A DNA stretch of 64,000 nt, taken from Schaalia hyovaginalis. GTDB lineage: Bacteria > Actinomycetota > Actinomycetes > Actinomycetales > Actinomycetaceae. Where the stretch lies: the NCBI RefSeq assembly GCF_014208035.1, contig NZ_JACHMK010000001.1:620001-684000 (forward strand), given 5' to 3'. The translations under genes and the position numbers were made by a program. Below, piece by piece: positions 5,724 through 22,700 of this stretch (positions within the stretch are counted from its first letter, which is position 1; each line of letters begins with the position of its first letter). Below the pieces are notes generated by a model. The model did not search any database, had not been told where the DNA came from, and saw only the letters and a list, made by a program, of their open reading frames with translations.

Positions 5724-7382
5724 TCAGCTTGCGATGAGGAAGCCGAGCACTCCGACGGAGGCGAGCGTCGTGAGGATCGACAGGAGGAGCACAAGCCCGA
5801 TCGAATAGGGGGCCGCGCGGCGCAGGAGCTCGGGCTCGAGGCCTTCTTGCTTCACCGCGGTCGCCGCGATGGCGAGGTTCTGCGGGCTCACGATCTTCCC
5901 GATGCCGCCGCCGATCTCATTGACGGAGAGGAGGAGCTGGGGGCTGAGGCCGGTCTGGGCGGCGACCGTGGAATGGAGGGAGGCGAAAAGGGCTCCCGCG
6001 GAGGTCGCTGAACCCGTGACCGCGGTGCCGATCCAGCCGAGAATGGGCGCGAAGAAGGCGAAGGCGGTGCCGGTCGCGGCCAGTGCGGTGCCGATCGCGA
6101 CGGTCTGCCCGGAGAAGTTCATCGTGTAGGCGAGCGCCATGACCGTCGTGATCGTGAGGATCGCCATGCGCAGTCCGATCACCGTGCTTCCGAGGGTCGC
6201 GATGCCCTTGGACACGCTGAAGGGGAAGCGGCCGCCGGAGGAATTCACCGAATAGACGATCGTCACGACGAGGGAGGCGAGGACGAGCATCGTGCCGGGA
6301 GAGGCGAGGGTCGAGATCGACAGGACCGTGTCGCCCGAGGCCTCGCCCGCCGGGGTGAGGAGCCGGCCATCGAGGCCGGGCCAGGGGATCTTCAGATCGG
6401 TGGCCTTGAGCGCGGCGGGCAGGTCGAAGCCGATCCGCCAGAGCTTCGCGGTCGCGAAGACGAGGACGACGAACCAGTAGGGCAGGAGTGCGAGGAGGGC
6501 GCGTCCGGCCCCCAGCGACTCGCCCTGGGAGGTGGTGAGCTGGTCCTGAGGGGTCGAGGGCGACCAGAACATGAGGAGGAGCGCGACGAGCGCGAAGGAC
6601 AAGAGCGCGCCGACGACGGCCGTGAGTTCGTAGGAGACGAAATGCGCGGTGAGGAAGTGGCCCGCCGCCATGCCGGCGCCCGAGACGAGTCCGACGGGCC
6701 AGAGCTGCTTCACGGCCCGTTTGCCGTCGAGCATGGCGAGGAGGACCAGGGGGAGCCAGATGAGGAAGAGCGGGGTGATGCGCGCGCCGGTCGAGGTGAG
6801 GAGGGAGGTTTCAGCGCCGCCGAGTCGGGCGGTCGTGATCATCGGGATCGCCATCGCGCCGAAGGCGACGTGGATCGAGTTGGCGACCATCGTGACGAGC
6901 GCGGCCTTGAGGGGTTCGAGGCCGAGGGCGAAGAGCATCGCGCAGGTGATGGCGACGGGGGCGCCGAATCCCGCGAGGCCCTCCATGAGAGCGCAGAAGG
7001 CGGTGGCGATGAGGAGCGCCTGGATGCGCAGGTCGCCCTTTCCGACGCGCGAGAAGATCGCCCGGACGTCATCGCCGCGCCCCGATGCCTCCGACAGGTT
7101 GTAGAGCCAGACGGCGGCGACGACGATGAAGCAGATGACGAGGATGCCGAATGCCGCGCCCTGGGTCGCCGAAAGGAGGGCGAGTCCGAAGGGCATGCGG
7201 AAGCCGAGGGCTGCGATGAGGAGTGCGACGCCGAGGGAGCCGAGGGCGCACCAGTGCGTCGGGATCTTGAAGACGCCGAGCATGACGAAGAAGACGAGCA
7301 GCGGGAGGAGGCCGAAAAGGGCGCTCAGGGGGAGAGAGCCGGCGACAGCGGTCACAGATGGAGTGAATGCACTGGTGAGCAT
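5724..7382 (-). CDS. lldP: L-lactate permease (LctP/LldP family)
   Basis: The 552-residue polytopic membrane protein carries lactate (and probably glycolate) across the cytoplasmic membrane, most likely with protons. The family length is about 540-560 residues. Recognisable features are an N-terminal LLPLLVFFVMLGVFKIP helix, the conserved AFCALMEGLAGFGAPVAI segment near residue 130-150, the VANSIHVAFGA stretch, and the C-terminal NEIGGGIGKIVSPQNLAIA motif, together with twelve or more hydrophobic segments. ATG 7382 has AGGA 8 nt upstream. The gene is divergent from the metal operon starting at 7598, and its 3' end abuts the 22-bp repeat array. A FAD/Fe-S D-lactate-type dehydrogenase is encoded at 27636-30797 in the same window. 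Confidence 0.93.
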   Translation of the reverse strand: MLTSAFTPSVTAVAGSLPLSALFGLLPLLVFFVMLGVFKIPTHWCALGSLGVALLIAALGFRMPFGLALLSATQGAAFGILVICFIVVAAVWLYNLSEASGRGDDVRAIFSRVGKGDLRIQALLIATAFCALMEGLAGFGAPVAITCAMLFALGLEPLKAALVTMVANSIHVAFGAMAIPMITTARLGGAETSLLTSTGARITPLFLIWLPLVLLAMLDGKRAVKQLWPVGLVSGAGMAAGHFLTAHFVSYELTAVVGALLSFALVALLLMFWSPSTPQDQLTTSQGESLGAGRALLALLPYWFVVLVFATAKLWRIGFDLPAALKATDLKIPWPGLDGRLLTPAGEASGDTVLSISTLASPGTMLVLASLVVTIVYSVNSSGGRFPFSVSKGIATLGSTVIGLRMAILTITTVMALAYTMNFSGQTVAIGTALAATGTAFAFFAPILGWIGTAVTGSATSAGALFASLHSTVAAQTGLSPQLLLSVNEIGGGIGKIVSPQNLAIAATAVKQEGLEPELLRRAAPYSIGLVLLLSILTTLASVGVLGFLIAS

Positions 7383-7516
7383 GGGGTTCCTCGCGTCGTT
7401 GCGGATGAAGACGGCTCAGGATAATCCCATCGGGAGCTCCTGCGCCACAGATAGGGGGCCGATCGGCGCGTTGTCGCGGCGGGCGCGGCCTTCGCGCCGC
7501 CCTGCGGGGCCGCGGA

Positions 7517-7546
7517 TTGACAATTAGGTAAGGATGGCCTTATCTA
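7517..7546 (+). promoter_or_regulatory. Promoter overlapped by a DtxR-like metal operator
   Basis: TTGACA (7517-7522) and TATCTA (7541-7546) are 18 bp apart. The interrupted palindrome AGGTAAGG-ATGG-CCTTATCT (7526-7533 and 7538-7545, one mismatch) covers spacer and -10. Its arms resemble the TTAGGTTAG half-site of DtxR/IdeR/MntR-type repressors, so iron- or manganese-dependent repression of the 7598-11986 operon is inferred. Confidence 0.6.
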
Positions 7547-7597
7547 TATTTGGTTCATCTCGCTGGTGGTGAACCTTCTCGAAAAGGAGCCCCTCTC

Positions 7598-8011
7598 GTG
7601 ACGAAGAAAACGCTCATCCCCGCCCTGATCCCCGCGACGCTCGGCCTGCTGCTTGCCCTCGGCGCCTCCACGGCCTTCTCCGCCTGCGATCGTCGCGAGG
7701 ACGGGACGTGGATGCACTGCCATCAGTGTCAGAACTCGGTCGTCGCCGGCGCCGTCGGAGTCGCCGCCGTCTTCGGGGCGAGCGCCTTCGTCCGCAACAG
7801 GACCATGCGGATCGCGATGCAAATCCTCGGCGTGATCGCCTCGATCCTCCTCTTCTTCATCCCCGGCGGCCTGTGCCCCATGTGCATGATGCGCACGATG
7901 CGCTGCTACACGGTGTTCCAGCCCTTCACCCGAGTGATGAGCTCCCTCCTCGCCCTCTCCGGGATCCTCGCCCTCGTCCCCTCCTTCAAGGCGAAGCGGA
8001 TTGACTCCTGA
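7598..8011 (+). CDS. DUF4418 family four-helix membrane protein
   Basis: This 137-residue protein has four hydrophobic segments (about residues 7-27, 45-65, 70-88 and 108-127) and resembles DUF4418 proteins, whose function is unknown. Between helices 1 and 2 lies SACDRREDGTWMHCHQCQN, with a CHQC motif, and between helices 3 and 4 GLCPMCMMRTMRCY; this Cys/His/Met cluster looks suited to metal or thiol chemistry at the outer membrane face. GTG 7598 is preferred because GAAAAGGAG lies 8 nt upstream; the open frame reaches back to 7550 without a ribosome site. It is the first gene of an operon with a DUF6273 protein, two FtsX-type permeases and an ATPase, behind a DtxR-like operator, which points to a metal-related job. 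Confidence 0.7.
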   Translation: MTKKTLIPALIPATLGLLLALGASTAFSACDRREDGTWMHCHQCQNSVVAGAVGVAAVFGASAFVRNRTMRIAMQILGVIASILLFFIPGGLCPMCMMRTMRCYTVFQPFTRVMSSLLALSGILALVPSFKAKRIDS

Positions 8012-8918
8012 AAACCCCGAATCGCCGGCGGATCCCCCTCGCCGCACCCCGATTCCGGGGACGAGGGCGGGGACGCTGGCGATCGTCCTCGTCCTGATCC
8101 TCGTCTCGGTCGCAACGCTCCTCGTCGTGCGCGAGCACCGCAGGGACGAGGAGTACCGGAGCGCCCTGCGACTGGCGCAATCCGGTGACGCGCAGAGCGC
8201 CTATGCGATCTTCAACGGCCTCGGGGGATACTCCGACGCCTCCGAGCGCGCCCGGCGCCTCCTCGAAGACGATCCCTCCCTGCCCCTGCGAAGCGCGGCG
8301 AAGGGCGACCTCGTCTCCTTCGGCTCCTTCGAGCAGGACGGCGACCCGTCGAACGGCCCCGAGCCCCTCCGCTGGATCGTCCTCGACAGGATCGAAGGGC
8401 GCCTTCTCCTCCTCGCCCTCGACTCCATCGCCGCCCGCCCCTACCACCCCGTCCCCTTCCAGGAGGCCTCCTGGGAGACGAGCGATCTGCGGGAGTGGAT
8501 GAACTCCGACTTCCTCGACACCGCCTTCACCGCCCCACAGCGCGCCCTCCTCGTTCCGAGCGGTGCCGCTGACGACGCGGGCGCGCGCCAGGAGGGGGCC
8601 CCCGAGGAGAAGACCCCGAGCGGGGATCTCGTTTTCGCCCTCAGCCGGATCGAGGCCGATATCTACCTGAGCGATGACGTGGAACGCGAACTCATCGGCG
8701 CGGCCCGCATCGCCGAAGCCGCGAAGGACCCGGCGCTGCCCCTCGACGAGGACGGCCGCGCCGACTGGTGGCTGCGCTCCCGGGGCAACTACGGATTCAC
8801 CGCCCAATTCGTCGACAGGAACGGCGCGCCCTACGCGCCCGGCGCCAACGTCGACGCGGTGTACGCGGTCCGACCCGCACTGTGGGTGGATCCCGAACGG
8901 GGAGGCGAAGAACGATGA
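8001..8918 (+). CDS. DUF6273 domain membrane-anchored protein
   Basis: The 305-residue protein has one transmembrane anchor (about residues 25-45) and an outside-facing C-terminal part. Residues about 100-290 look like DUF6273: WIVLDRIEGRLLLLALDSI, then SWETSDLREWMNSDFLDTAF, and WWLRSRGNYG near the end. The biochemical role is unknown. No ATG or GTG fits the N-terminus; TTG 8001 is used, overlapping the stop of the DUF4418 gene by 11 nt, so the start is uncertain. The 3' end overlaps the next gene by ATGA. A short tetratricopeptide-like stretch (SALRLAQSGDAQSAYAIFNG) follows the anchor. Position in the operon suggests an accessory extracytoplasmic component of the ABC system. Confidence 0.65.
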   Translation: MTPENPESPADPPRRTPIPGTRAGTLAIVLVLILVSVATLLVVREHRRDEEYRSALRLAQSGDAQSAYAIFNGLGGYSDASERARRLLEDDPSLPLRSAAKGDLVSFGSFEQDGDPSNGPEPLRWIVLDRIEGRLLLLALDSIAARPYHPVPFQEASWETSDLREWMNSDFLDTAFTAPQRALLVPSGAADDAGARQEGAPEEKTPSGDLVFALSRIEADIYLSDDVERELIGAARIAEAAKDPALPLDEDGRADWWLRSRGNYGFTAQFVDRNGAPYAPGANVDAVYAVRPALWVDPERGGEER

Positions 8919-10096
8919 AAACGGGCGCCTTCTTGCGCAGAGTGCCGCTCAAGAGCATTCTCGCTCGTCCCGGCCGGAGCATGTTCCTCGTCTTCCTCGC
9001 CCTCCTTCAAGCCGCCTGCGCCCTCGTCGCCCTCCTCCTCGTCCAGGGGATCGGGCACGAGCTGCTCCGCGCCGAGCAGCGCCTGGGCGCGGACGTCCTC
9101 GTCTACCCCTCAGCCGGCTTCCTCCAGCTCGACAGCAGTTGCGTGAACATGCTGGGGAGCCCCGTACAGTACTACCGGGACCGCTCGGGTCTCGCCCTCC
9201 TCGCGGAGAACGACGAGATCAACGCGATCTCCCACCAGATCCACGTCTCAGTGCCGAACCCCGGGCGCGAAGGGCCGAAGTGGATCATCGGCTACGACCC
9301 CGAGACCGACTTCGTCATCACCCCCTGGCTCGAGGAGGGGGCGGATGCGGCCGGGGGAGTCGTCCTCGGATCAGCGGTGGGGGCTTCCGCTTCGAACGGG
9401 CTCGAGCTCTTCGGGGAGCGCCTCCCGATCACGGCCCGACTCGCGCGCACGGGCGGGGAGTACGACGACTCGGTGTTCGTGCCGCTCCGGATGCTCGACC
9501 GCCTCCTCGCGCGCGCCCCGCAATACGGGGTGGAAGGGGTTGAGGGCCTCGACCCCCTCAGGGACTACTCGGTGGCGACCATCCGGGTCGGCGACAAATC
9601 CAAGGTCGAATCCGTCGCGAACTGGATCAATCTCTACATCCGCAAGGTGACCGCCGTCCATTCCGAAACCCTCCTGGTCGATACGGCGGGCGCCCTCGGG
9701 GCCCATTCGGCGGGGATCGCCGTTCTGGGAGGGGCCGCCTGGCTCCTCCTCCTCGCGGCCCTCGGCGTCGCGCAGTCGGTGATGATGAACGAAAGGCGCG
9801 GGGAACTGCACATATGGAGGGTCGTCGGAGCCCCGAAAGCGACCGTCAGGAGGATCATGCTCGCGGAATCCCTCATCCTTCAGGCGATCGGGAGCGGGAC
9901 GGGGATCCTCCTGTCCTGGCTCCTCCTCGCCCGCATCAACGGCCCCGTCCGCGCGGAGGCGCTCACCGCCTCCGCGATGGCGCTCACGCTCCTCGCGGCC
10001 TTCGCCGCCTCCCTCCTCGTCGGCTGGGCGAGCGCGCGCTTCGCCCTGAGGAGGGCGATGCGCTCGGCGGACGCGCAGATGCTCCTCACGGTCTAG
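8915..10096 (+). CDS. FtsX/MacB-like ABC transporter permease (DUF4418 operon, first)
   Basis: This 393-residue permease has the MacB/FtsX layout: a first helix (about residues 22-44), a large extracytoplasmic domain, and three C-terminal helices, with NERRGELHIWRVVGAPKATV before the second last segment as the usual coupling region. The external domain contains DSSCVNMLGSPVQYY and GYDPETDFVITPW; the latter recurs almost unchanged in the partner permease. ATG 8915 overlaps the previous stop (ATGA) and has GGGGAGG upstream. Such permeases use ATP for mechanical work or export outside the membrane rather than canonical uptake. Substrate is not determinable; operator and neighbours suggest metal or redox stress. 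Confidence 0.82.
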   Translation: MKTGAFLRRVPLKSILARPGRSMFLVFLALLQAACALVALLLVQGIGHELLRAEQRLGADVLVYPSAGFLQLDSSCVNMLGSPVQYYRDRSGLALLAENDEINAISHQIHVSVPNPGREGPKWIIGYDPETDFVITPWLEEGADAAGGVVLGSAVGASASNGLELFGERLPITARLARTGGEYDDSVFVPLRMLDRLLARAPQYGVEGVEGLDPLRDYSVATIRVGDKSKVESVANWINLYIRKVTAVHSETLLVDTAGALGAHSAGIAVLGGAAWLLLLAALGVAQSVMMNERRGELHIWRVVGAPKATVRRIMLAESLILQAIGSGTGILLSWLLLARINGPVRAEALTASAMALTLLAAFAASLLVGWASARFALRRAMRSADAQMLLTV

Positions 10097-10110
10097 GAAA
10101 AGGGGGAACC

Positions 10111-11316
10111 ATGCTGACGATGTCGAGCCTGCCCGGGAGGAACCTGCGCGCCCACCCGGTGCGCACGGGCTCCCTCCTGCTCTTCGCCGCGCTCATGGCG
10201 GTCGCGACCTTCGGGGGAGCGCTTCTCGTGCAGAGCCTCAGCCACGGGCTCGAAACCGTCGAATCCCGCCTCGGCGCGGACCTCCTCGTCACCCCCGCCG
10301 GGGCCGCTCGGGAGTTCGACGCCCAGAAGTTCCTCATCGAGGCCGAGCCGGCCTACTTCTACATGGACGCCGCGATCCGCGACGAGGTCGCGCGCGTCGA
10401 GGGCGTGGCCGCGGCCAGTCCGCAGCTCTTCCTCGCCTCTGCGAGGTCGAGCTGCTGCTCGGGCCGCTATCAGGTCATCGCCTTCGACCCGAAGACCGAC
10501 TTCGTCATCCGGCCCTGGATCGCAGACGAGGGGGCGCCGATGGTCGGCGCCATGGAGGTCGTCGTAGGGGCGAACGTCGCAGTCGCCGAGGGCGAGGAGT
10601 TCCGGATCTACGGCCAGCGCCTCAAGGTCGTCGGCCGCTTCGCCCCGACGGGCTCCACCCTGGACAACGCGGTCTACGCGGACTTCGACACGGCCAGGGT
10701 CCTCACGGCCTCCTCCGTCGACAAGGGGTTGAACAAGTACGGGGAGGTCGACCCGGAGCGGGTGATCTCCTCGGTGATGGTCGACGTCGAAGACGGGGAG
10801 GACATCGAGGAGGTCGCGGACCGGATCAGGAGCTCGACGCCCGGGGTGAGCGTCGCGACCGCGAAGGACATGGTCAAAGGGCTCGAGTCGACTCTCGCCT
10901 CGACCTCGCGCGCCATCGGCGCCTTCGTCGTCCTCGTGTGGGTGATCGCTCTGGTGATGACCCTCCTCCTCTTCTCCGCCATGCTCAATGAGCGCTCGCG
11001 GGAGTTCGCGCTGTTGAAGACCCTGGGGGCCGATAGGGCGGCGGTGTCGAGGATGGTCGTGACCGAGGCGGCGCTGATCGGCCTGCTGGGGGCCTCGGCG
11101 GGGATCTGCCTGTCGGGCGGGGTGATCGCGGCCTTCCGCGCCCTGCTCGGCCAGTCCTTCGGGGCCGCGCTCGTGCTCCCCTCGGCGCCGGTCGTGGGGA
11201 TCTGGATCCTGGTCTGCCTCGCCTCGGTGCTGTTCGCGGTTCTCGCCTCGGCATTGCTCGCGATGCGCCGCATCGCGCGGGCGGATTCGGGCCTCGTCTT
11301 GAAGGAAGGGGAATGA
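10111..11316 (+). CDS. FtsX/MacB-like ABC transporter permease (DUF4418 operon, second)
   Basis: A 401-residue paralogue of the preceding permease with the same topology: helix at about residues 20-42, external domain, three C-terminal helices with NERSREFALLKTLGADRAAV as coupling motif. The external domain has SARSSCCSGRYQVIAFDPKT with a vicinal Cys pair, then DFVIRPW; the partner lacks the CC pair but keeps DPxTDFVIxPW. ATG 10111 follows AAAAGGGGGAACC. The gene is 14 nt after the first permease and 1 nt before the ATPase, so all three are translated together. The Cys pair could bind metal or form a disulfide; this is inference. Confidence 0.82.
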   Translation: MLTMSSLPGRNLRAHPVRTGSLLLFAALMAVATFGGALLVQSLSHGLETVESRLGADLLVTPAGAAREFDAQKFLIEAEPAYFYMDAAIRDEVARVEGVAAASPQLFLASARSSCCSGRYQVIAFDPKTDFVIRPWIADEGAPMVGAMEVVVGANVAVAEGEEFRIYGQRLKVVGRFAPTGSTLDNAVYADFDTARVLTASSVDKGLNKYGEVDPERVISSVMVDVEDGEDIEEVADRIRSSTPGVSVATAKDMVKGLESTLASTSRAIGAFVVLVWVIALVMTLLLFSAMLNERSREFALLKTLGADRAAVSRMVVTEAALIGLLGASAGICLSGGVIAAFRALLGQSFGAALVLPSAPVVGIWILVCLASVLFAVLASALLAMRRIARADSGLVLKEGE

Positions 11317-11317
11317 G

Positions 11318-11986
11318 ATGGTCATGAGGGCTCAGGAGCTGAGGAAGGACTATCAGCGGGCGGGCAGGAGGGGAGGGCTCTTCACCGCCGTGCAGCCCCT
11401 CGACCTCGAACTGGCCCCCTCGGAGCTGGTGGTGGTCCGGGGGCGTTCGGGCAGCGGGAAGAGCACCCTGCTCGCGATGCTCGCCGGGATGCTCGTCCCG
11501 ACTTCGGGCCGTGTCCTCCTCGGGGAGGAGGACGTGTACGCCCTCGATGAGGCGGCCCTGTCGCGCCTGCGCAATGAGCGCATCGGCGTGATCCCCCAGG
11601 GCAATTCCGCCCTGCGCAGCCTGTCCGTCCTCGAGAACGTCATGCTCCCCTCGATCATCCGGGGCGGGGAGGCGTCGAGGGCGAGGGCGGAGGAGCTTCT
11701 CGATGAGCTCGGCATCGCGCCGCTCGCGGATTCGGCGCCCACGGAGCTCTCCGGCGGGGAGCTGAGGCGGGCGGCGGTGGCCAGGGCGCTGCTCCTGGGG
11801 CCTGAAACCCTCCTGGCCGATGAGCCGACGGCGGGGCTCGACAGTGCGAATGCGAGGGTCGTCCTCGAGGCGATCCGCCGGGCGGCGGATGCGGGCGCGG
11901 CCGTCCTCCTCGTCTCGCATGAGGACGAGGCCCTGCCCTTCGCCGATCGCGTGCTCGCGATGGAGGACGGTGCGCTGCGCGCCTGA
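11318..11986 (+). CDS. ABC transporter ATP-binding protein (MacB/LolD type)
   Basis: The 222-residue ATPase has Walker A GRSGSGKSTLL (about residue 47), Q-loop PQGNS, signature LSGGELRRAAVARALLLGP and Walker B ETLLADEPTAGLD, followed by the H-loop LVSHEDEA. Its size and the ELSGGELRR form fit the LolD/MacB group that partners FtsX-like permeases. It starts 1 nt after the second permease and closes the DUF4418 operon. It would power the two permeases as a heterodimeric complex. About 150 nt separate it from the FTR1 operon, which has its own promoter. Confidence 0.9.
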   Translation: MVMRAQELRKDYQRAGRRGGLFTAVQPLDLELAPSELVVVRGRSGSGKSTLLAMLAGMLVPTSGRVLLGEEDVYALDEAALSRLRNERIGVIPQGNSALRSLSVLENVMLPSIIRGGEASRARAEELLDELGIAPLADSAPTELSGGELRRAAVARALLLGPETLLADEPTAGLDSANARVVLEAIRRAADAGAAVLLVSHEDEALPFADRVLAMEDGALRA

Positions 11987-12139: not shown

Positions 12140-13393
12140 GTGAGAGGCAATGCCCGCCCGATCGCACGGACGACGAAGGGCATCAGGGCCGTCCTGCTGC
12201 TCCTGACCTCCCTCGCGCTTCTCCTCTTCCTCCCCTCGCCCGCGCGCGCCGAGGGCGCCGCATCGACCTGGGATGAGGTCGCCGAGGAAATGGGGCAGAT
12301 CCTCGACCAGGCCGAGCAGGCCTATCTTTCCGGAGACGCCGAGGCCGGAAAAGACGGGGTCAACACCGCCTACTACAGGCGCTACGAGACCCTCGGCTTC
12401 GAGAAGCAGGTGATGGCGCGGATCTCGGGCGAACGGGTATCCGCCGTCGAGATGGAGTTCTCCCTCATCAAGAAGGCGATGACCGATCACGACGACGCCG
12501 CGGTGGCCGAGCACACGCAGATCCTCAAGACCTACCTCCGCGAAGACGCGAAAGCCCTCGACGGCCCCTCGGAGGACACCTCGAACGGCTCGCCCTGGCT
12601 CTCCGGCTTCCTCCCCTCCCTCCTCGTCATCCTCCGAGAGGGGATGGAGGCGATCCTCGTCGTCGCCGCGATCCTCGCCTACCTCGGCAGGGCCGGGCAC
12701 AAGGACAAGAGCCGGATCGTGTGGGCCGGGGTCGTCCTCGCCCTCCTGGCCTCGGTCCTCCTCGCCGTGCTCTTCTCCACCTTCTCGCATCTCGCCGGGG
12801 CGAACCAGGAGCTCCTCGAGGGCGTCGCCGCGCTCTTCGCCGTCGCCATGCTCATCTGGGTCTCGAACTGGATGATCAGCAAGTCCTCGAGCCAAGCCTG
12901 GGACCGGTACATCAAAGAGCAGACCGACGCCTCCTTGAACAGGGGCTCCCTCTTCGGACTGGCCTTCATCGCCTTCCTCGCGGTCCTGCGCGAAGGGGCC
13001 GAGACGATCCTCTTCTACATCCCGGTCATCTCCAACGCGGACGAGGCCGTCGGATACGTCTGGATCGGCCTCGCGGTGGGAGCGGCGATCCTCGTCCTCG
13101 TCTACCTGCTCATCCAATTCGCGGCCCTGCGCATCCCCCTGCGCCCCTTCTTCACCGTCACCTCGCTCCTCCTGGCCCTCATGGCCGTCACCTTCACAGG
13201 CTCGGGGATCAAAGAACTTCAGGAAGCCGACGTCCTGCCGCTCACCTACCTGGACGGCTTCCCGACCATTGACCTCTTGGGGATCTACCCCAGAGTGGAG
13301 AACCTCGCCGGACAGGCCCTGGTTCTCGCCATCATCGTCGGCCTGTACTTCTGGGGATCGCGTCGTCAACGCCGCGACGCCCTCGCGAAGTGA
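12140..13393 (+). CDS. FTR1-family iron permease
   Basis: The 417-residue protein starts with a signal sequence (LLLLTSLALLLFLPSPARA, about residues 19-37) and an extracytoplasmic helical domain, followed by about seven membrane helices. Two REGxE iron-binding motifs, REGME near residue 166 and REGAE near 284, are the hallmark of FTR1/EfeU/FtrC permeases. GTG 12140 is used: AAGGAG lies 8 nt upstream, and an ATG at 12135 runs into a stop after one codon. It leads an operon with a P19 protein, a DUF2318 protein, two ABC permeases, an ATPase, an FMN-binding lipoprotein and ApbE, the same set found around Campylobacter P19. Role: high-affinity iron uptake across the cytoplasmic membrane. Confidence 0.92.
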   Translation: MRGNARPIARTTKGIRAVLLLLTSLALLLFLPSPARAEGAASTWDEVAEEMGQILDQAEQAYLSGDAEAGKDGVNTAYYRRYETLGFEKQVMARISGERVSAVEMEFSLIKKAMTDHDDAAVAEHTQILKTYLREDAKALDGPSEDTSNGSPWLSGFLPSLLVILREGMEAILVVAAILAYLGRAGHKDKSRIVWAGVVLALLASVLLAVLFSTFSHLAGANQELLEGVAALFAVAMLIWVSNWMISKSSSQAWDRYIKEQTDASLNRGSLFGLAFIAFLAVLREGAETILFYIPVISNADEAVGYVWIGLAVGAAILVLVYLLIQFAALRIPLRPFFTVTSLLLALMAVTFTGSGIKELQEADVLPLTYLDGFPTIDLLGIYPRVENLAGQALVLAIIVGLYFWGSRRQRRDALAK

Positions 13394-13432
13394 CGAACCG
13401 TCGATCCCACACACCGACACGGAGAACGATTC

Positions 13433-14056
13433 ATGAAGCGCTCATTCACGCGCGTCGGCGCCCTCGTCGGCGCCCTCGCCCTGATGGCGGGCCTCTCGGC
13501 CTGCTCCTCCTCCACCTCCTCCAAACCCGCCGAATCGATGCAATCCGCCCCGACGGAGGCCGCCGCCCCCGGCGAGGACGCCGGATTCGACGAATTCCCC
13601 CTCGGCGATGACGTCTTCTCGGGCCCCCTGAAGATCTCGGGCGTCTACTTCCAGCCGGTCGACATGGACCCCCAGGTCCAGACCCCGGCCTCCGAGGCCT
13701 CGATGCACATCGAGGCGGACATCTCCGCCGTCGAGGGCAACGACCTCGGCTACGGCGTCGGCGACTTCATCCCCGGCCTCACCGTCGAGTACAAGATCCT
13801 CGGCGAAGACGGCAAAGCCGTCCTCGAGGGCACCTTCATGCCGATGAACGCCTCCGACGGCCCCCACTACGGCCTCAACCTCCCCAAGCTGGACGCCGGA
13901 ACCTACACGGTCCAATTCATCGTCCACTCCCCGGAGGAGAACGGCTGGCTCCTCCACACCGATGAGACCACCGGTGTCAAGGGCCGCTTCTGGACCGAGC
14001 CGATCACGGCCGAATTCACGAACTGGAAGTGGGATCCCAGCGCCGTCGAGTGGTGA
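13433..14056 (+). CDS. P19/Tp34-family iron-binding lipoprotein
   Basis: This 207-residue protein has a lipoprotein signal (lipobox LSAC, Cys 24) and then an acidic beta-sandwich domain of the P19/Tp34 family (iron transport protein, Pfam Tp34). In that family a Cu site with Met/His ligands and an iron site at the dimer interface are known; here Met residues in PVDMDPQVQ and SMHIEADIS and His residues in GPHYGLN and VHSPEENG are candidate ligands. It sits 39 nt after the FTR1 gene and should deliver iron from the cell surface to the permease. As a Gram-positive version it is tethered by lipid instead of being periplasmic. Confidence 0.88.
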   Translation: MKRSFTRVGALVGALALMAGLSACSSSTSSKPAESMQSAPTEAAAPGEDAGFDEFPLGDDVFSGPLKISGVYFQPVDMDPQVQTPASEASMHIEADISAVEGNDLGYGVGDFIPGLTVEYKILGEDGKAVLEGTFMPMNASDGPHYGLNLPKLDAGTYTVQFIVHSPEENGWLLHTDETTGVKGRFWTEPITAEFTNWKWDPSAVEW

Positions 14057-14134
14057 GACGAAGCGCGGGCCGGAGGCGGCTCCGGCCCGCGCGCCCCGCC
14101 CGATGAGCCGCAGCGAGCACAAGGAGGACGAGTC

Positions 14135-15397
14135 ATGATCGAGCAGATGGGGCAGACGACTCTCGTCCTGCTCCTCAGCGCGCTCGCCGTCGCAGTGGTC
14201 GTCCCCGCCGTCCCCGCGGGCGGGCGCGGGCGCTCGGCCCGGCGCATCCGGACATGGACGATCGGAAGCGGTCTCGCGCTCGGCCTCCTCGCCTCCCTCC
14301 TCCTCACCGTCGTCAACACCCTCGCCCCGAAAGCCGTCAATCGGCAGACCGTCGCCCTGTGGAGCCTCCCTCTCGCGATCGGCCTCGCGATCGCGGTGGT
14401 CGTCCTCGTCCTCCTGCGGGCGCGCCGCCCCGGGGGCGCGCCGATCCTCGACACCCCGCTGCGCCTCCTCATCGCCGCCTACATCGCCCTCGTGCTCTTC
14501 CGGAGCGCGCCGAGCGCGATGGCCCAGGCCGTCATGCTGGTGCCCGCGGGAAGCGGGACGCCCTCCACCCAAACGGTCCTCGCCTTCACCGGATACGTCC
14601 TCGGCTGGGCGGCGGCCGCCCTCCTCGGCGCCCTCGCATGGAAGCTCACCTCCCTCGCGCACAGGCGCTGGCCCACGGTCCTCGTCCCCGCCGTCCTCGC
14701 CCTCACCCACGCGCTCCTCATCATCCGCATCCTCCAGGCCCAGCGGGTCATCGAGATGTCCAACTCGGCCTTCAAGGCCCTCTCGTGGTTCATCAACCAC
14801 GAAGCCGTCTTCCCGCTCGCGGGCATGTCCGTCCTCCTCGTCCTCGCCGCCCTCACCTGGGCCGAGGGGAGGACGATGCCCAGGAGCGGGGCCAACCCCG
14901 CCGAAGGGCGCCTCAACCGCGCGCGGGCCAGGCTCTGGAAGACGATCGCCGGGGCCGCCGCGGGGGGCTACCTGTGCGGGGCCCTCCTCATCACCCTGGG
15001 CGTGGTGGTCGGATCCGCCGAGGTCGAACTCTCCGAACCGGAGTCCTACTCGGTCGTCGAGGAGCAGGCCGTGATCGATATCGCCAAGATCTCCGACGGG
15101 CATCTCCACCGCTTCGTCTACACGACGAAGTCGGGGGTCGAAGTCCGCTTCATCGTCATCCAAAAAGCCGGATCCTCCTTCGGGGTCGGCCTCGACGCCT
15201 GCGAGATCTGCGGTCCGAGCGGCTACTACGAGAAGGACGGGAAGATCATCTGCAAGCTCTGCGAAGTCGCCATGAACATCGCGACGATCGGCTTCAAAGG
15301 CGGATGCAACCCCATCCCCATCGAATACACGGTCTCGAACGGCTCGCTGACCGTGCCGTTGAGCGTCCTGGAGGCGAGTGAAGGGGTCTTCGCATGA
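14135..15397 (+). CDS. DUF2318 Fe-S-type membrane protein of the FTR1-P19 operon
   Basis: The 420-residue protein has about eight hydrophobic segments in its first 290 residues and a C-terminal DUF2318 domain. There CEIC and CKLC motifs (about residues 356-380) and GFKGGCNPIPIEY (about 387-399) form the conserved cysteine set, likely for an Fe-S or other metal centre outside or at the membrane. ATG 14135 follows AAGGAGGACGAGTC. In Campylobacter the homologous gene follows p19 and is thought to pass electrons or metal to the system. It is 78 nt after the P19 gene and 49 nt before the first permease of this operon. Confidence 0.88.
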   Translation: MIEQMGQTTLVLLLSALAVAVVVPAVPAGGRGRSARRIRTWTIGSGLALGLLASLLLTVVNTLAPKAVNRQTVALWSLPLAIGLAIAVVVLVLLRARRPGGAPILDTPLRLLIAAYIALVLFRSAPSAMAQAVMLVPAGSGTPSTQTVLAFTGYVLGWAAAALLGALAWKLTSLAHRRWPTVLVPAVLALTHALLIIRILQAQRVIEMSNSAFKALSWFINHEAVFPLAGMSVLLVLAALTWAEGRTMPRSGANPAEGRLNRARARLWKTIAGAAAGGYLCGALLITLGVVVGSAEVELSEPESYSVVEEQAVIDIAKISDGHLHRFVYTTKSGVEVRFIVIQKAGSSFGVGLDACEICGPSGYYEKDGKIICKLCEVAMNIATIGFKGGCNPIPIEYTVSNGSLTVPLSVLEASEGVFA

Positions 15398-15446
15398 GGC
15401 GGAACGAACGCCGCATCCTTGTCGCCGTGCGACGGGGGCGGCGCTG

Positions 15447-16718
15447 ATGTTCATCAGGATGCTCTCGCGCGCCCTCGTGCGGCGCGGAAACCGTCATCTC
15501 CTCATCGCCCTGACCGTCGCCCTGGGGGCCGCGGTCGCAGCCTCCATGCTCTCGGTCATGTTCGACGTCGGGGACAAGGTCAATCAGGAGCTCAAGTCCT
15601 ACGGGGCGAACATCGTCGTCCGCCCGCGCGGAGCCGCCGTCCTCGAAGACCTCTACGGCGCGCAGGGGGCCGGCGAGTCCTATCTGCGCGAAGACGAGCT
15701 CCAGAACATCAAGACGATCTTCTGGACCTACAACATCCTCGACTTCGCGCCCCTCCTGCCCGTCGAGGCCCTCGACGCCGAGGGCGGGCCCGTCACCGTC
15801 ACGGGCACGTGGTTCTCCCACCATCTCGACCTGGCGACCGGGGAGAGCGTCGACACGGGCCTGGACCGTCTGCGCGGATGGTGGACCATCGAGGGGGAGT
15901 GGGCCTCGCAGTCCGATCCCGCGGGCGTCATGGTCGGTTCCTCCTACGCGGCGAAGCGCTCCTTGAAAGCCGGCGATCCCCTCGTCCTCAGCCGCGGGGA
16001 GGAGAGGATCGAAACCGTCATCACGGGCGTGTTCGATTCCGGGGACGAGGCCGACGAAGGGGTCTACGCCCCTCTCGCCCTCGCGCAGCGGCTCCTCGGG
16101 CGCCCCGGGGCCGTCGGGTCCGTCGAAGTCTCCGCGCTGACGACCCCGGACAACGATCTCGCCCGCAAGGCGGCGAGGAACCCCGGTTCGCTGTCGGTCT
16201 CCGAACGCGAAACCTGGTACTGCACCGCCTACGTCTCATCGATCGCCTACCAGATCGAAGAAGTGATGACGGACTCCGTGGCGAGGCCCGTCCGCCTGAT
16301 CGCCGAATCCGAGGGCACGATCCTGTCCAAGACCCAGCTCCTCATGATGCTCGTCACCCTCCTGGCCCTCGCCTCCTCGGCCCTGGCCATCGCGAACCTC
16401 GTCACCGCGAACGTCATGGAGCGCTCCTCCGAGATCGGGCTCATGAAAGCCATCGGGGCGAAGAACGGCTCGATCATCGCCCTCTTCCTCGCTGAGATCT
16501 CCCTCGTGGGCGGCGTCGGCGGCCTGATCGGCTACGGGGCGGGGATCGGCCTCGCCCAGATCATCGGGAAGGCGGTCTTCGGCTCGGCGATCGCCTTCGC
16601 CCCGATCGTCATCGTCCTCGTCGCCGTCCTCGTCCTCCTCGTCGTCCTCGGCGCCTCGGTCCCCGCAATCCGCTACCTGCTGCGCCTCAACGCGGCGGAA
16701 GTCCTCCACGGAAGGTGA
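15447..16718 (+). CDS. FtsX/MacB-like ABC permease (FTR1 operon, first)
   Basis: A 423-residue permease: N-terminal helix (about residues 20-40), large external domain and three C-terminal helices with ERSSEIGLMKAIGAKNGSI as coupling segment. GANIVVRPRG at the start of the external domain parallels GADVLVYPSA in the DUF4418 operon, showing the two systems belong to one broad family. ATG 15447 is preferred (GGGGG about 8 nt upstream); an in-frame start at 15378 would overlap the DUF2318 gene and add an unlikely polar stretch. The homologues in Campylobacter (Cj1661/Cj1662) are needed with P19, but their substrate is unsettled. Confidence 0.87.
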   Translation: MFIRMLSRALVRRGNRHLLIALTVALGAAVAASMLSVMFDVGDKVNQELKSYGANIVVRPRGAAVLEDLYGAQGAGESYLREDELQNIKTIFWTYNILDFAPLLPVEALDAEGGPVTVTGTWFSHHLDLATGESVDTGLDRLRGWWTIEGEWASQSDPAGVMVGSSYAAKRSLKAGDPLVLSRGEERIETVITGVFDSGDEADEGVYAPLALAQRLLGRPGAVGSVEVSALTTPDNDLARKAARNPGSLSVSERETWYCTAYVSSIAYQIEEVMTDSVARPVRLIAESEGTILSKTQLLMMLVTLLALASSALAIANLVTANVMERSSEIGLMKAIGAKNGSIIALFLAEISLVGGVGGLIGYGAGIGLAQIIGKAVFGSAIAFAPIVIVLVAVLVLLVVLGASVPAIRYLLRLNAAEVLHGR

Positions 16719-16720
16719 GC

Positions 16721-17890
16721 ATGAGCCGTCGCACGATGTTCTGGCGGATGGTCATGTCCTCGATCATCCGTAGGCGCTCCCGGGTCCTCATCGCGATCCT
16801 CGCGGTCGCGATCGGCGCGACCACCCTGTCGGGCCTGGCGACGATCGCCATCGACGTCCCCGCGCAGATGGCCCGGGAAGTCCGCTCCTACGGGGCGAAT
16901 CTCGTCGTCTCCCCGGGCCCGGGCGCCGCCTCGCTCGACGAAGCGGCCCTGGCCGCGGTCGAGCGCGCCGTCCCGAAGGACCTCCTCGTCGGCTCCGCCG
17001 CCTTCGAATACGCGACCGTTCTCATCAACGACCAGCCCTTCATCGCCGCGGGGAGCGACCTGGCCTCGGTCCGCGCCATGAACCCCTACTGGTTCGTCGA
17101 GGGCGCCTGGCCCGGCGGCGACGGGGAAGTCCTCATCGGGGAGGAGATCGCGCAGACCATCGGCGCGAACCCCGGCGACCGGATCCTCGTCTCCGCCCTC
17201 CTCGACCCGAAGCGGGACCCGGCCGGGCAGTCATCGCGGGCCCAGAAGGACGAGCCCCTCTCCCTCCTGGTCTCCGGCGTCCTCAAAACCGGCGGCAACG
17301 AGGACGGCTACATGTACACGGGCTCCGCCGACATTCAAGGGATCACCGGGGCCGAACCCGCCCCGAGCATCGTCGAGTACTCGATCGCCGCGGAGTCCGA
17401 GCGCCTCGCCCAGATCGCCCAGTCCATCGAGAGCGGGGCGCAGGACGTCTCGGCGCGCGTCGTCAAACGCCTCGCCGCCTCCGACTCGGGGGTGCTCGAC
17501 ATGCTGCGCTCCCTGCTCGCGATCATCACGGGAATCGTCCTCGCCCTCACGATGATCGGCGTCTCGACGACGATGGTCGCCGTCGTCGCCGAACGCCGGA
17601 CCGAGATCGGCCTCCGCAAGGCCCTCGGCGCCTCGTCGCGCTCCGTCATCGTCGAATTCGTCGGGGAGAGCGCGCTGCTCGGACTCGTAGGGGGCTGCTT
17701 CGGCGCCCTGTTCGGCTACGCCCTCGCATCCGGCGTCGCCCTCAACGTGTTCCACCGCAGCGTCGACGCGCCGGTCCTGATCCTCGTCATCACCGTCCTC
17801 GCCTCCATCGGCGTCTCCGTCCTCGCCTGCCTGCCCCCGGTGAGACGGGCCGCCGCCATCGATCCGGCCCTCGTCCTGCGCGGAGAATGA
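16721..17890 (+). CDS. FtsX/MacB-like ABC permease (FTR1 operon, second)
   Basis: A 389-residue partner of the preceding permease with the same topology; the coupling region reads ERRTEIGLRKALGASSRSV and the external domain begins GANLVVSPGPG. Two starts are possible: GTG 16715, overlapping the previous stop as GTGA, or ATG 16721 with GGAAGG 5 nt upstream; the ATG is preferred. A 10-nt gap leads to the ATPase. It lacks the vicinal cysteines present in the second permease of the DUF4418 operon, so the two ABC systems are probably not interchangeable. Confidence 0.87.
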   Translation: MSRRTMFWRMVMSSIIRRRSRVLIAILAVAIGATTLSGLATIAIDVPAQMAREVRSYGANLVVSPGPGAASLDEAALAAVERAVPKDLLVGSAAFEYATVLINDQPFIAAGSDLASVRAMNPYWFVEGAWPGGDGEVLIGEEIAQTIGANPGDRILVSALLDPKRDPAGQSSRAQKDEPLSLLVSGVLKTGGNEDGYMYTGSADIQGITGAEPAPSIVEYSIAAESERLAQIAQSIESGAQDVSARVVKRLAASDSGVLDMLRSLLAIITGIVLALTMIGVSTTMVAVVAERRTEIGLRKALGASSRSVIVEFVGESALLGLVGGCFGALFGYALASGVALNVFHRSVDAPVLILVITVLASIGVSVLACLPPVRRAAAIDPALVLRGE

Positions 17891-17900
17891 AGGAAGAAGC

Positions 17901-18632
17901 ATGACTGAAGAAGAACGGACTCGTCCCCTCCTCGACCTGCGGGGGGTGTCGAAGATCTACGGGGACCTCCACGCGATCGACGAGATCAGCCTGCAGGTCC
18001 CCCGGGGCCAATGGCTCTCGATCGTCGGCCCCTCGGGCTCGGGGAAGACGACCTTGATGAACATCGTCGGCTGCATGGACACCCCCTCGCGGGGGACGGT
18101 CCTGCTCGACGGGCACGACATCTCCGACCTCACCCGCGATGAGCTCACCGAGATCCGGCGCGACACGATCGGCCTCGTCTTCCAGCAGTTCCATCTCATC
18201 GGCCACCTCAGCGCCCTCGAGAACGTCATGGTCGCCCAGTACTACCACTCGATGCCCGACGAGGCCGAGGCCATGGAGGCCCTCGACCGAGTCGGCCTGG
18301 CCGATCGGGCCTCCCATCTTCCCCGTCAGCTCTCCGGCGGCGAGCAGCAGCGGGTGTGCGTCGCGCGCGCCCTCATCAACTACCCGAAGCTCATCCTCGC
18401 CGACGAACCGACCGGCAACCTCGACGAGAGGAACGAGGAGATCGTCCTCGACCTCTTCGGCCAGCTCCACCGCGAGGGGACGACCCTCATGGTCGTCACC
18501 CACGACGCCCGGGTCGCGGGCTGCGGCCAGCGGGAGATCGCCCTCGAGCACGGCAGGGTCCTCAAGGAGACTCTGCACGAGCAGGACCGCCCCTTCAGGG
18601 CGACCGGAAAGGACAAGGCCGCACTGCGATGA
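17901..18632 (+). CDS. ABC transporter ATP-binding protein of the FTR1 operon
   Basis: This 243-residue ATPase has Walker A GPSGSGKTTLMN (about residue 43), Q-loop FQQFHLI, signature QLSGGEQQRVCVARAL and Walker B LILADEPTGNLD with the H-loop VVTHDAR. It is of MacB/LolD type and would energise the two permeases just upstream. ATG 17901 follows GAAGGAAGAAGC. Its last codons overlap the FMN-binding lipoprotein gene by ATGA, tying energy supply and the flavin protein to one translational unit. Confidence 0.92.
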   Translation: MTEEERTRPLLDLRGVSKIYGDLHAIDEISLQVPRGQWLSIVGPSGSGKTTLMNIVGCMDTPSRGTVLLDGHDISDLTRDELTEIRRDTIGLVFQQFHLIGHLSALENVMVAQYYHSMPDEAEAMEALDRVGLADRASHLPRQLSGGEQQRVCVARALINYPKLILADEPTGNLDERNEEIVLDLFGQLHREGTTLMVVTHDARVAGCGQREIALEHGRVLKETLHEQDRPFRATGKDKAALR

Positions 18633-20280: not shown

Positions 20281-20505
20281 GTGATGCTCTCGAAGTGCCC
20301 CAGGAACAGCCACGGCCGTCTCGTGCGGATCGACGTCGACCCCGCGCACAGGCTCCGCCTCCAGGAACTCGGACTGCGACCGGGCACGGAGTTCTACCTC
20401 GCCAACCGCGCCGCCTTCGGCGGCGTCGTCCTCAACATCGCCGGCACCCGCGTCGCGGTCGATGCACGCTCCGCGAAGCGCATCGACGTGGAGGTCGCCG
20501 CATGA
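20281..20505 (+). CDS. feoA: FeoA-like ferrous iron transport protein
   Basis: The 74-residue SH3-like protein (GRLVRIDVDPAHRLRLQELG then RPGTEFYLANRAAFGGVVLN) is a FeoA domain that modulates FeoB in the cytoplasm. The start is GTG 20281, immediately followed by an ATG at 20284; both are close to the predicted transcript 5' end. Four-base overlap (ATGA) with feoB shows translational coupling. It begins the third iron-related unit of this stretch, after the DUF4418 and FTR1 operons. Confidence 0.9.
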   Translation: MMLSKCPRNSHGRLVRIDVDPAHRLRLQELGLRPGTEFYLANRAAFGGVVLNIAGTRVAVDARSAKRIDVEVAA

Positions 20506-22700
20506 GCTGCCCGAAATGCGCACCCTCATCGGCCCCGTCCGCCGTGGCGAACCCGGTGCCCGAAGAGCACGCAGAACGCCTCAGGGTCGATCCGACGATC
20601 GTCCTCGTCGGCAACCCGAACGTCGGCAAGTCGACCCTCTTCAACCTCGTCACCGGCGCCCGCCAGGCCGTCGTCAACGCGCCCGGCACGACCGTCGAGG
20701 TCATGGCCGGCGCATGGACCGCCGTCGGCGCCCGCATCCTCGACCTGCCCGGCACCTACTCCCTCATCGCGAACTCCCTCGACGAGCAGGTCGTCGTCGA
20801 CACCCTCGCCGGAGCGCCCGGATCCTTCACCGACCCCGCTCGGGGCCGGGGCATCGACCTCGTCCTCGTCCTCCTCGATGCGACGGCCCTCACGCGCTCG
20901 CTCTACCTGCTCGCGCAGGTCGCGCGCACGGGCCGCCCCGTCGCCGCAGTCGTCACCCTCTCCGACGTCACCGCCCACGAGGGCGAGACGACCGACGTCG
21001 CCTCGCTCGGCCGCGCCCTCGGCGTCCCCGTCATGGCGATCGACCCCCGCTCGCACAAGGGCCTCGACGCCCTTGAAGACATGGTCCGCGCCGCCCTGCG
21101 GACGCGGCCGCGCGTCGCGGGCATCGAGCCCGATCCCGCGGCCCCCGGGTACAGCGCGACCGCCGCCCTCGGCGCCCTCGAGATGGCGCAGGAGGAGCGC
21201 GGCGCCGACGAGGCCCTCGACCCCGAATGCGGCTGCGGGCGCGGCCTCGACTGCCTCATGCGCGAGCCCGCCCCCGATTCCTCGGCCGCGGCCGCCGCGG
21301 CGAAGATGCGCGAGAAGGATCCCCTCGCCGTGGCCGACGACCTCTTCGCCTGGGTCGAGGGGGTCGAGGCCGACGCCTTCGGCGCGCGCGCCGACCAGGC
21401 GAAGCCGTCGCGATCGGACAGGATCGATCGGCTCCTCCTCCATCCGGTCGTGGGGATCCCCGTGTTCTTCGCGCTCATGTGGTTCCTCTTCAAAGTCGCG
21501 GGCGAATGGGTCGGGCCCGTCCAGGACTTCTTCGATGCGCTCTTCACCTCCGAGGACCCGGGGGCCGTCTCCCTCGCCAACCTCATCAACGCCGGCCTTG
21601 CGGCCCTCGGCTGGCAGGGGACCTGGCTCCACGGGCTCCTCGTCGGGGGGCTCGCGACCGGCCTCGGCGTCGTCGCCTCCTTCCTCCCGCTGATGTTCGT
21701 CATCTTCCTCCTCATCTCGATCCTCGAGGACTCCGGGTACATGGCCCGCGCGGCCTTCCTCGGCGACCGGGTGATGCGGGCGATCGGGCTCGACGGGCGC
21801 GTCATCATGCCGCTCATCATGGGCTTCGGCTGCAACCTCCCCTCCCTCGCCGCGGTGCGCACCCTGTCGAACGCGCGCCAGCGCCTCATCACGGTGCTCA
21901 TCACCCCCTACACCTCCTGCGCCGCGCGGCTCACGATCTACCTCATGATCGCCAGGATCTTCTTCCCCGTTCATGCGGGGACGGTGATCTTCGCGATGTA
22001 CGTCCTGTCGATCCTGCTCGTCATCATCGCGGCCCTCGTCCTGCGCCCCTTCCTCAACAGGAACGCGAGCGAGGCCCCCCTCATGCTCGTCCTGCCCGCC
22101 TATCAGATGCCGCGACTGCTCGTCACGCTCAAATCCACGTGGCTGCGCGCCTGGGCCTTCGTCAAGGGCGCGGGCAAGGTGATCGTCCTCATGACCCTCG
22201 TCGTGTGGCTCATGTCGGCGATCCCCGTCGCGGGCGGCTACTCCTTCGCCGATGAGGAGCTCCCGATGGAGGACTCCGTTTACGGAGCGACCGCCCAGCT
22301 GCTCGTGCCCGCCTTCGAACCGGCGGGCTTCGGGGACTGGCACATGACGGGCGCCCTCATGACGGGCTTCGTCGCCAAGGAGACCCTGATCTCCTCGATC
22401 GTCACCTCCTACAACCTCGACCCGGCGACGGCGGGCGATGCGGAGGAGGGCGGCTCCGACCTCGGCTCGCTGCCCGAACTCATCACCTCTACCTTCCAAG
22501 GCACGGCGGGGGACGCCGCGCCCCTGGCGGCCTTCGCCTTCATGGTCTTCGTGCTCGCCTACACGCCCTGCCTCGCGACCGTCGCCGAGCAGGCGCGACA
22601 GGTCGGCGGGCGGATCACCGCGGGTGCCGTCGGCGTGCAGCTGGTGGCGGCCTGGCTGTTGGCGGTCGCGATCTTCCAGATCGGAAGACTCTTCCTGTGA
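20502..22700 (+). CDS. feoB: Ferrous iron transporter FeoB
   Basis: The 732-residue protein has a cytosolic G domain and a C-terminal membrane channel. G1 GNPNVGKSTLFN is at about residues 36-47 and G3 DLPGTYS at about 80-86. The usual G4 (N-x-x-D) reads TLSD (VVTLSDVT, about 153-160), so the guanine-contacting Asn is missing. A Cys-rich insertion ECGCGRGLDCLM lies at about 243-254, and the N-terminus itself starts MSCPKC. The membrane part has two Gate-type regions (SILEDSGYMARAAF and GFVAKETLISSIV). Function: Fe(II) uptake under low oxygen. The 3' end overlaps the FeoC-like gene by GTGA. Confidence 0.93.
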   Translation: MSCPKCAPSSAPSAVANPVPEEHAERLRVDPTIVLVGNPNVGKSTLFNLVTGARQAVVNAPGTTVEVMAGAWTAVGARILDLPGTYSLIANSLDEQVVVDTLAGAPGSFTDPARGRGIDLVLVLLDATALTRSLYLLAQVARTGRPVAAVVTLSDVTAHEGETTDVASLGRALGVPVMAIDPRSHKGLDALEDMVRAALRTRPRVAGIEPDPAAPGYSATAALGALEMAQEERGADEALDPECGCGRGLDCLMREPAPDSSAAAAAAKMREKDPLAVADDLFAWVEGVEADAFGARADQAKPSRSDRIDRLLLHPVVGIPVFFALMWFLFKVAGEWVGPVQDFFDALFTSEDPGAVSLANLINAGLAALGWQGTWLHGLLVGGLATGLGVVASFLPLMFVIFLLISILEDSGYMARAAFLGDRVMRAIGLDGRVIMPLIMGFGCNLPSLAAVRTLSNARQRLITVLITPYTSCAARLTIYLMIARIFFPVHAGTVIFAMYVLSILLVIIAALVLRPFLNRNASEAPLMLVLPAYQMPRLLVTLKSTWLRAWAFVKGAGKVIVLMTLVVWLMSAIPVAGGYSFADEELPMEDSVYGATAQLLVPAFEPAGFGDWHMTGALMTGFVAKETLISSIVTSYNLDPATAGDAEEGGSDLGSLPELITSTFQGTAGDAAPLAAFAFMVFVLAYTPCLATVAEQARQVGGRITAGAVGVQLVAAWLLAVAIFQIGRLFL

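Follow-up and report, generated by a model that had tools for sequence, protein, structure and literature searches.

A DUF4418, Cys-pair permease and ATPase gene unit as a possible accessory of Fet/Sif-type iron uptake

Results

The DNA described here, hereafter the window, is a stretch of 64,000 nucleotides of the Schaalia hyovaginalis genome (contig NZ_JACHMK010000001.1, positions 620,001 to 684,000), whose own numbering is used throughout. Open reading frame (ORF) calls place at 7598-11986, on the + strand, a tightly packed operon of five genes, which an earlier sequence-only reading had proposed to be a metal or redox system under a metal-repressor-like operator. The first gene (7598..8011, GTG start) encodes a DUF4418 protein of 137 residues (PF14387, E 8.1e-20, 71.7 bits against a cut-off of 27) and overlaps by 11 bases, in the ORFs as called, the gene for an N-terminally anchored, extracytoplasmic DUF6273 protein (8001..8918; PF19789, E 2.4e-16, 60.5 bits against 23.5). 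Permease A, an FtsX-type protein (8915..10096; PF02687, E 3.1e-11), overlaps the latter by 4 bases and is followed by permease B, a MacB/FtsX-type protein with a type VII ATP-binding cassette (ABC) fold (10111..11316; PF12704 and PF02687), and, after a gap of 1 base, by an ATPase of the LolD/FtsE-like class (11318..11986; PF00005, ABC_tran, E 5.4e-30; best NCBIfam model TIGR02211, under its cut-off). The FtsX domain is found in both permeases, MacB_PCD in permease B alone. Likewise, both share the motif DPxTDFVIxPW, and only permease B carries a vicinal Cys pair, C115-C116. Gene order, overlaps and residues, including the shared motif and the single Cys pair, are thus those of the sequence-only reading. 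A MacAB efflux pump was considered and rejected, the ATPase not being fused to the permease (separate ORFs 10111-11316 and 11318-11986).

A palindrome, TAGGTAAGG-atgg-CCTTATCTA, lies at 7525-7546 and, as previously noticed, covers the promoter region, between TTGACA (7517-7522) and TATCTA (7541-7546) or TATATT (7545-7550), all on the + strand. A promoter scanner returned no promoter at its threshold, and the TTGACA and TATCTA/TATATT hexamers were left unscored. The palindrome was also scored as a terminator-like hairpin, a reading set aside because no + strand gene seems to end before it and TTGACA lies alongside. Upstream of the operon, the intergenic region 7383-7597 holds the iron box and is shared with a divergent lactate permease gene (5724-7382, - strand), and this L-lactate permease gene might be under the same control as the DUF4418 operon.

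Linkage was surveyed in 62 DUF4418 loci (L031-L050 without L043, L069-L107, L111, L112, L115 and L116), leaving aside L108-L110, L113 and L114, probable repeats of other loci, and L043, which equals L078; some stretches are short (6.5 kb in L050, 5.0 kb in L116), and the genus genomes G011, G019, G022, G025 and G028 stand outside the long-stretch locus set. A permease with the motif CC...D[FV]...PW lies on the DUF4418 strand in 60 of the 62 loci, and in 54 an ATPase follows the Cys-pair permease at a distance of -60 to +100 bases. Negative intergenic gaps in this survey stem from over-extended ORF starts, except in L046, L047 and L116, where the permease is genuinely upstream of DUF4418. Same-strand linkage fails in G144 and G210 alone, whose genomes encode the permease at another site. 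Among 296 genomes of the phylum, DUF4418 scores above cut-off in eight and permease B has a match (E <1e-50) in nine, all eight DUF4418 genomes being common to both sets; these figures exclude sub-cut-off DUF4418 matches in G189 and G100, with no permease match there, and partial permease matches in G099 and G114 (E about 1e-31 to 1e-32), with no DUF4418. The linkage suspected for the whole operon therefore holds for DUF4418 and the Cys-pair permease, both present even when apart, while DUF6273 and permease A fall outside it: as far as gene content and order indicate, the conserved unit is a triad of DUF4418, permease B and ATPase, smaller than the five-gene operon.

A protein search with the window DUF4418 returned 656 proteins, the matches listed including close relatives in Schaalia cardiffensis, Schaalia sp. 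19OD2882, Isoptericola variabilis and Actinomyces metagenome-assembled genomes (MAGs); the G336 protein returned 3, and an alignment of distant DUF4418 sequences 162, with Bifidobacterium, Gardnerella and Gleimia among the matches listed. Triad carriers in Bifidobacterium include B. merycicum DSM 6492 (L069) and the B. longum strain of PMC7701253. Some distant genes have other neighbours. In L049 (9954-11682) a small Cys-rich ORF and the gene of a membrane 4Fe-4S protein precede DUF4418, with no ABC genes alongside, which suggests a role in redox contexts beyond the triad; in L048 it is near an Rrf2 regulator, and in L045 near a ResB-like protein, with FtrD. These three neighbours fit a redox setting. 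Large Big_13-domain proteins separate DUF4418 from the Cys-pair permease and ATPase in L046 (4742-9619) and L047 (10092-12569), from genomes G125 and G331.

In DUF4418, residues C30, C41, C96, M101 and C103 are invariant across 19 diverse aligned rows; in a 93-row alignment C96, M101 and C103 remain invariant, and C30 and C41 are kept in at least 90% of rows. Two extra cysteines, producing a CXXC in each loop (C41-C44 and C93-C96 in the window protein), are found in all 9 genus-type rows of the 19-row alignment and in none of the 10 others. The four-helix architecture attributed to DUF4418 is reproduced by the AlphaFold model (predicted local distance difference test, pLDDT, 83.5), with helices at 3-26, 40-64, 68-87 and 102-136, which place the conserved cysteines at the same end; by a positive-inside reading, the loops bearing them would be on the outer face. 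A PDB sequence search with the 93-row profile gave no match. A fold search with the model retrieved generic four-helix bundles, and DsbB and VKOR were not among the matches listed, which excludes nothing.

All 28 rows of a permease B alignment keep both C115 and C116, as do 62 of the 63 rows of a wider alignment, the single miss being a 111-residue, probably spurious ORF. The ectodomain also carries D130-F131...P135-W136. In the predicted model the pair lies in a loop between two ectodomain strands (residues 113-115, pLDDT <50), and a fold search assigned the protein to the LolCDE/HrtBA/MacB type; the FtsX domain, the MacB-like extracytoplasmic domain and the matching fold are those of type VII ABC transporters.

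The two remaining genes of the window operon were seen in this genus alone. DUF6273 was recognized in 10 of 11 long genus loci, the eleventh, L035, having a run of N at the expected place, and in none of the non-genus loci annotated with the window query. Permease A, recognized in this genus alone, is present in all 11 (L031-L041), the ATPase in 9. None of 12 aligned permease A rows has CC at the motif, and in a tree of 49 permeases this protein is sister, on a long stem, to the permease B of the genus (99/96), with FetB/FetC apart (100/100). Sister position and missing pair point to a duplication in the lineage of the genus, with loss of the pair in one copy. The permease of the genus is probably now a heterodimer in which one subunit lacks the Cys pair. 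G003 (L042), labelled as the same genus, has the triad alone and no five-gene operon; its permease groups with Bifidobacterium (90/97, below the mark for firm support), and this Bifidobacterium-type triad was perhaps acquired by horizontal transfer.

As the sequence-only reading had anticipated, two iron uptake operons lie downstream, a Fet/Sif-type operon and a feoB-type gene. The former, all + strand, comprises FTR1 (12140-13393), P19 (13433-14056), FtrD (14135-15397), FetB (15450-16718), FetC (16715-17890) and FetD (17901-18632), recognized by Pfam, an FMN-binding lipoprotein (about 18623-19177; FMN_bind, flavin mononucleotide-binding, 21.0 bits, just below the cut-off of 22) and ApbE (19174-20193, Pfam). 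Region 12140-20193 thus contains, in the order given in the portion of PMC6083913 consulted, FTR1, P19, FtrD (DUF2318), two FtsX permeases, an ATPase and then, as in Gram-positives, the FMN-binding gene. The second iron operon holds a ferrous iron transporter gene of the feoB type (20295..22700, + strand; PF02421, PF07670 and PF07664); the first 102 residues of the ORF as called have no Pfam match, and this upstream part may correspond to feoA. Rfam gathering and tRNA scans of the 64-kb window gave no match.

Direct linkage to fet genes was seen in 9 of the 62 stretches: L032-L034 in the genus, G056, where the triad follows ApbE, G336, where it is nested between FetC and FetD, and L103-L106. 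In L103-L106, the order is FetB-FetC-FetD-DUF4418-permease-ATPase in Frischella japonica and two Oxalobacter records, and a Lactobacillales MAG has fet, DUF4418, permease and ATPase with an FMN gene intervening. Going by their record names, we take the phyla with such fusions to be Actinomycetota, Pseudomonadota and Bacillota.

Co-occurrence was evaluated in two draws, one of 98 relatives and one of 396 genomes of the order, with DUF4418 in 20 and 18, together 29 genomes. FtrD scores above cut-off in 29 of these 29, compared to 7 of 78 and 27 of 378 genomes without DUF4418; within the genus, the figures are 18/18 with DUF4418 and 2/17 without. Fisher tests on these counts ignore genome kinship. 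In seven distant DUF4418 genomes, FtrD was found in five.

Iron-type operators were evaluated separately. Scored against what we take to be the DtxR/IdeR consensus, a 19-base box at 7524-7542 of the window agrees at 14/19 positions (p 0.002, 1000 dinucleotide shuffles of the 200 upstream bases), while none of 876 control intervals of 200 bases (20000-63800) reaches 13/19. The box proposed earlier as a DtxR-like operator is significant in the window. Among relatives, at DUF4418 the box is significant (p <0.02) in just 5 of 13 relatives (L031, L032, L035, L042 and L044), L033 and L037 having dropped from this test through ORF choice. Upstream of FTR1 the window has a 13/19 box (p 0.011), and three of four relatives score p <0.03 there. 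The feo promoter reaches 11/19, and no claim is made for it. The DtxR-type domain PF01325 is found above cut-off at five places in the source genome, a weak indication since 13 of 14 control genomes also match. A degenerate box pattern, drawn with the window site in view, shows no genome-wide enrichment (3 strand-wise matches versus 8 for the reversed control); its sole other place in the genome, in L123 (1501-1704), precedes the gene of an iron-siderophore permease of the FecCD type, with a 43-residue ORF (about 1573-1704) between the two.

For Bifidobacterium, the consulted sections of PMC5449479 report another motif, for bfeUO and further iron genes, with its regulator unidentified. All six Bifidobacterium-type fet loci (L160-L165) have this operator upstream of FTR1, with 16-18 of its 18 bases matched; no site was found in L168, nor upstream of the FTR1 ORF as called in the Gardnerella-type L166-L167, L167 having a 14/18 site 336 bases inside. 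Of 37 triad loci in Bifidobacteriaceae, 29 have a site of at least 13/18 close to the DUF4418 start, with 27 such sites elsewhere in the same 746 kb and about 0.4 expected in the counted intervals. This background covers whole loci, less AT-rich than promoters; shuffles of each upstream region, which control for base composition, give p <0.05 in 27 of the 37. Three loci scored as misses, L071, L090 and L115, have a bfe-like site outside the counted interval, in the first two probably because of an over-extended ORF start. As these triad stretches contain no recognized fet gene, the operator evidence is independent of position.

One permease departs from the Cys pair in a suggestive way. In G156, of the same phylum, the permease frame (L131, minus strand) is interrupted once, by a TGA in place of the codon for the first Cys of the pair (TGA-TGC), and the genome encodes SelB (TIGR00475, 380.8 bits against a cut-off of 242.25). 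Six of 36 genomes searched in the same class have the permease, the other five without TGA; in G295 the third codon of the match is a TAA, ahead of where the protein probably starts, and the G347 gene is truncated at a contig end. The G156 permease is thus a candidate selenoprotein, possibly of a new family. Selenocysteine (Sec) at the first position, if right, suggests that the Cys pair is chemically reactive.

Discussion

The operon, the conservation of its core, the co-occurrence and the operator-like sites are established observations; subunit contact, direction of transfer and the choice of thiol redox over metal carriage are what we infer from them. With moderate confidence, we propose that DUF4418, permease B and ATPase form an iron-repressed accessory unit of Fet/Sif (FTR1-P19) uptake that would act outside the cytoplasm, through thiol chemistry or the transfer of metal bound to thiols. 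The sequence-only reading, which suggested homeostasis of metal or thiols under the control of iron, is supported in part: fusion to fet operons, FtrD co-occurrence and two unrelated operator types support a link to iron uptake, yet FtrD is missing in two distant triad genomes.

A type VII ABC complex of the MacB/LolCDE/HrtBA kind, with a four-helix membrane partner, would be made when iron is scarce. The ATPase would drive the permease ectodomain to bring its vicinal Cys pair up to the cysteines that face outward in DUF4418, and reducing equivalents in thiol form, or a metal ion carried by thiols, would be passed to FtrD, P19 and the FMN protein, keeping ferric iron or its carriers in a state that FTR1 can import. 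The triad would thus represent a second ATP-driven, thiol-based step in the extracytoplasmic iron chain. In the genus of the window, DUF6273 would have been added as an external subunit and DUF4418 would have acquired a CXXC in each external loop. If true, this would be the first role for DUF4418, and it would account in part for the large number of membrane proteins that accompany P19-type iron systems; the residues singled out are C115-C116 of the permease and C30, C41, C96 and C103 of DUF4418. A bolder version, which we hold to be rather unlikely, is that DUF4418 and the Cys-pair permease, Sec-Cys in one lineage, use ATP to carry reducing equivalents, as thiols or selenols, across the membrane, as an ABC-powered reductase for iron acquisition with a new selenoprotein family among its permeases. 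Such an ABC-powered extracytoplasmic reductase would be a function without description in the literature examined.

Several observations weigh against the accessory unit as proposed. No fet gene was recognized in 53 of the 62 stretches. G331 and G125 have triad genes with no FtrD match, and G156 has the permease with no DUF4418 match at E 0.1, so that neither dependence is absolute; the 7 and 27 FtrD genomes without DUF4418 further indicate that the triad is not essential to Fet. Among the operators, the DtxR-like box is insignificant in 8 of 13 relatives (L034, L036, L038-L041, L043 and L107), the Bifidobacteriaceae sites at DUF4418 agree with the published motif at 13-15 of 18 bases, not exactly, and the Gardnerella-type L100-L102, like L115, have no site of at least 13/18 in the counted stretch. 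The Sec case is single, hence its candidate status, and the 7-pair hairpin considered as a SECIS element after the G156 TGA is equalled by 61 of 200 shuffles. Experiments on the triad, whether biochemical or genetic, were absent from the literature examined.

The chief competitor of thiol redox is a transfer of thiol-bound metal. Under a reading of soft-metal handling rather than electron transfer, DUF4418, with its C, MxC, His and Met residues, would bind Cu(I), Fe(II) or Zn(II), and the ABC unit would move the metal, for instance loading P19 with copper or delivering or extracting Fe(II). We regard this as possible, on the unlikely side: the Cys pair, with its possible Cys-to-Sec exchange, and the two gained CXXC motifs are at least equally typical of redox sites, and the partners in the same operons are electron carriers (FtrD, FMN/ApbE), with ResB and 4Fe-4S proteins beside distant DUF4418 genes.

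A plain type VII exporter or extractor of a peptide, lipid, lipoprotein or heme, after the manner of MacB, LolCDE, HrtBA or Bce, might be merely iron-regulated, its cysteines forming structural disulfides. This is quite improbable: an invariant vicinal pair within a low-confidence loop would be an unusual structural disulfide, the possible Sec exchange argues for reactivity, and the partnership with a four-Cys membrane protein is near-complete. That the triad and the fet genes are chance neighbours, the former with its own function and only the iron regulator in common, would agree with the 53 stretches devoid of fet genes and with G331 and G125, but is most improbable, given the fusion to fet operons in records from three phyla and the FtrD co-occurrence in 29 of 29 genomes.

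No paper among those listed in open-access searches, which leave subscription papers and supplements outside, describes the triad; in a transcriptome table from B. longum, DUF4418 appears together with the next permease. By title and abstract, nothing in the open-access literature on DUF6273 bears on this operon.

Four known systems invite comparison. SaoP and other predicted transporter selenoproteins (PMC13188914) likewise include Sec predicted in an ABC permease; the main text of that paper contains neither 'MacB' nor 'DUF4418', and the portions of its Table 1 examined list no FtsX-type permease. With type VII ABC transporters (MacB, LolCDE, HrtBA, FtsEX, BceAB) the triad shares the fold, the FtsX domain, the MacB core domain and a separate LolD-like ATPase; what sets it apart is a membrane partner with four Cys that is almost always present, together with the vicinal Cys pair, and its scores fall far under curated NCBIfam cut-offs.

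The thiol-quinone enzymes DsbB and VKOR have four helices and conserved cysteines in two external loops. DUF4418 likewise combines four predicted helices with conserved cysteines in both putative external loops, and in the genus also features a CXXC in each (CHQC-type and CPMC/CPLC). In contrast to these enzymes, the CXXC is not kept outside the genus, and the family-wide spacing, as numbered in the window protein, is C-x10-C and C-x6-C. Bifidobacteria are not known to have quinones.

The closest setting is that of FetMP-FetABCDEF in Campylobacter jejuni and BfeUO-SifABCDE in Bifidobacterium breve, whose gene content and order, in the consulted parts of PMC6083913, PMC10783030 and PMC5449479, are matched by 12140-20193. 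In C. jejuni, loss of each of fetA-fetD hampers growth in an iron-dependent way, and the role of FetBCD is termed unclear in the portion of PMC10783030 drawn on here; clustering of P19 with FMN-binding or thioredoxin-like partners has suggested extracytoplasmic redox steps (PMC8238504, in part), and Bifidobacterium mutants under iron limitation already exist (PMC5449479, same sections). These systems likewise hold a pair of FtsX-type permeases and an ATPase. The consulted passages of PMC6083913, PMC10783030 and PMC5449479 do not mention the DUF4418 triad, which stands apart from these systems as an ABC unit in its own right: the Cys pair of its permease is missing in FetB/FetC of the window and in 11 other FetB/FetC-type ORFs, and the permease forms a clade of its own apart from FetB/FetC, with 100/100 support.

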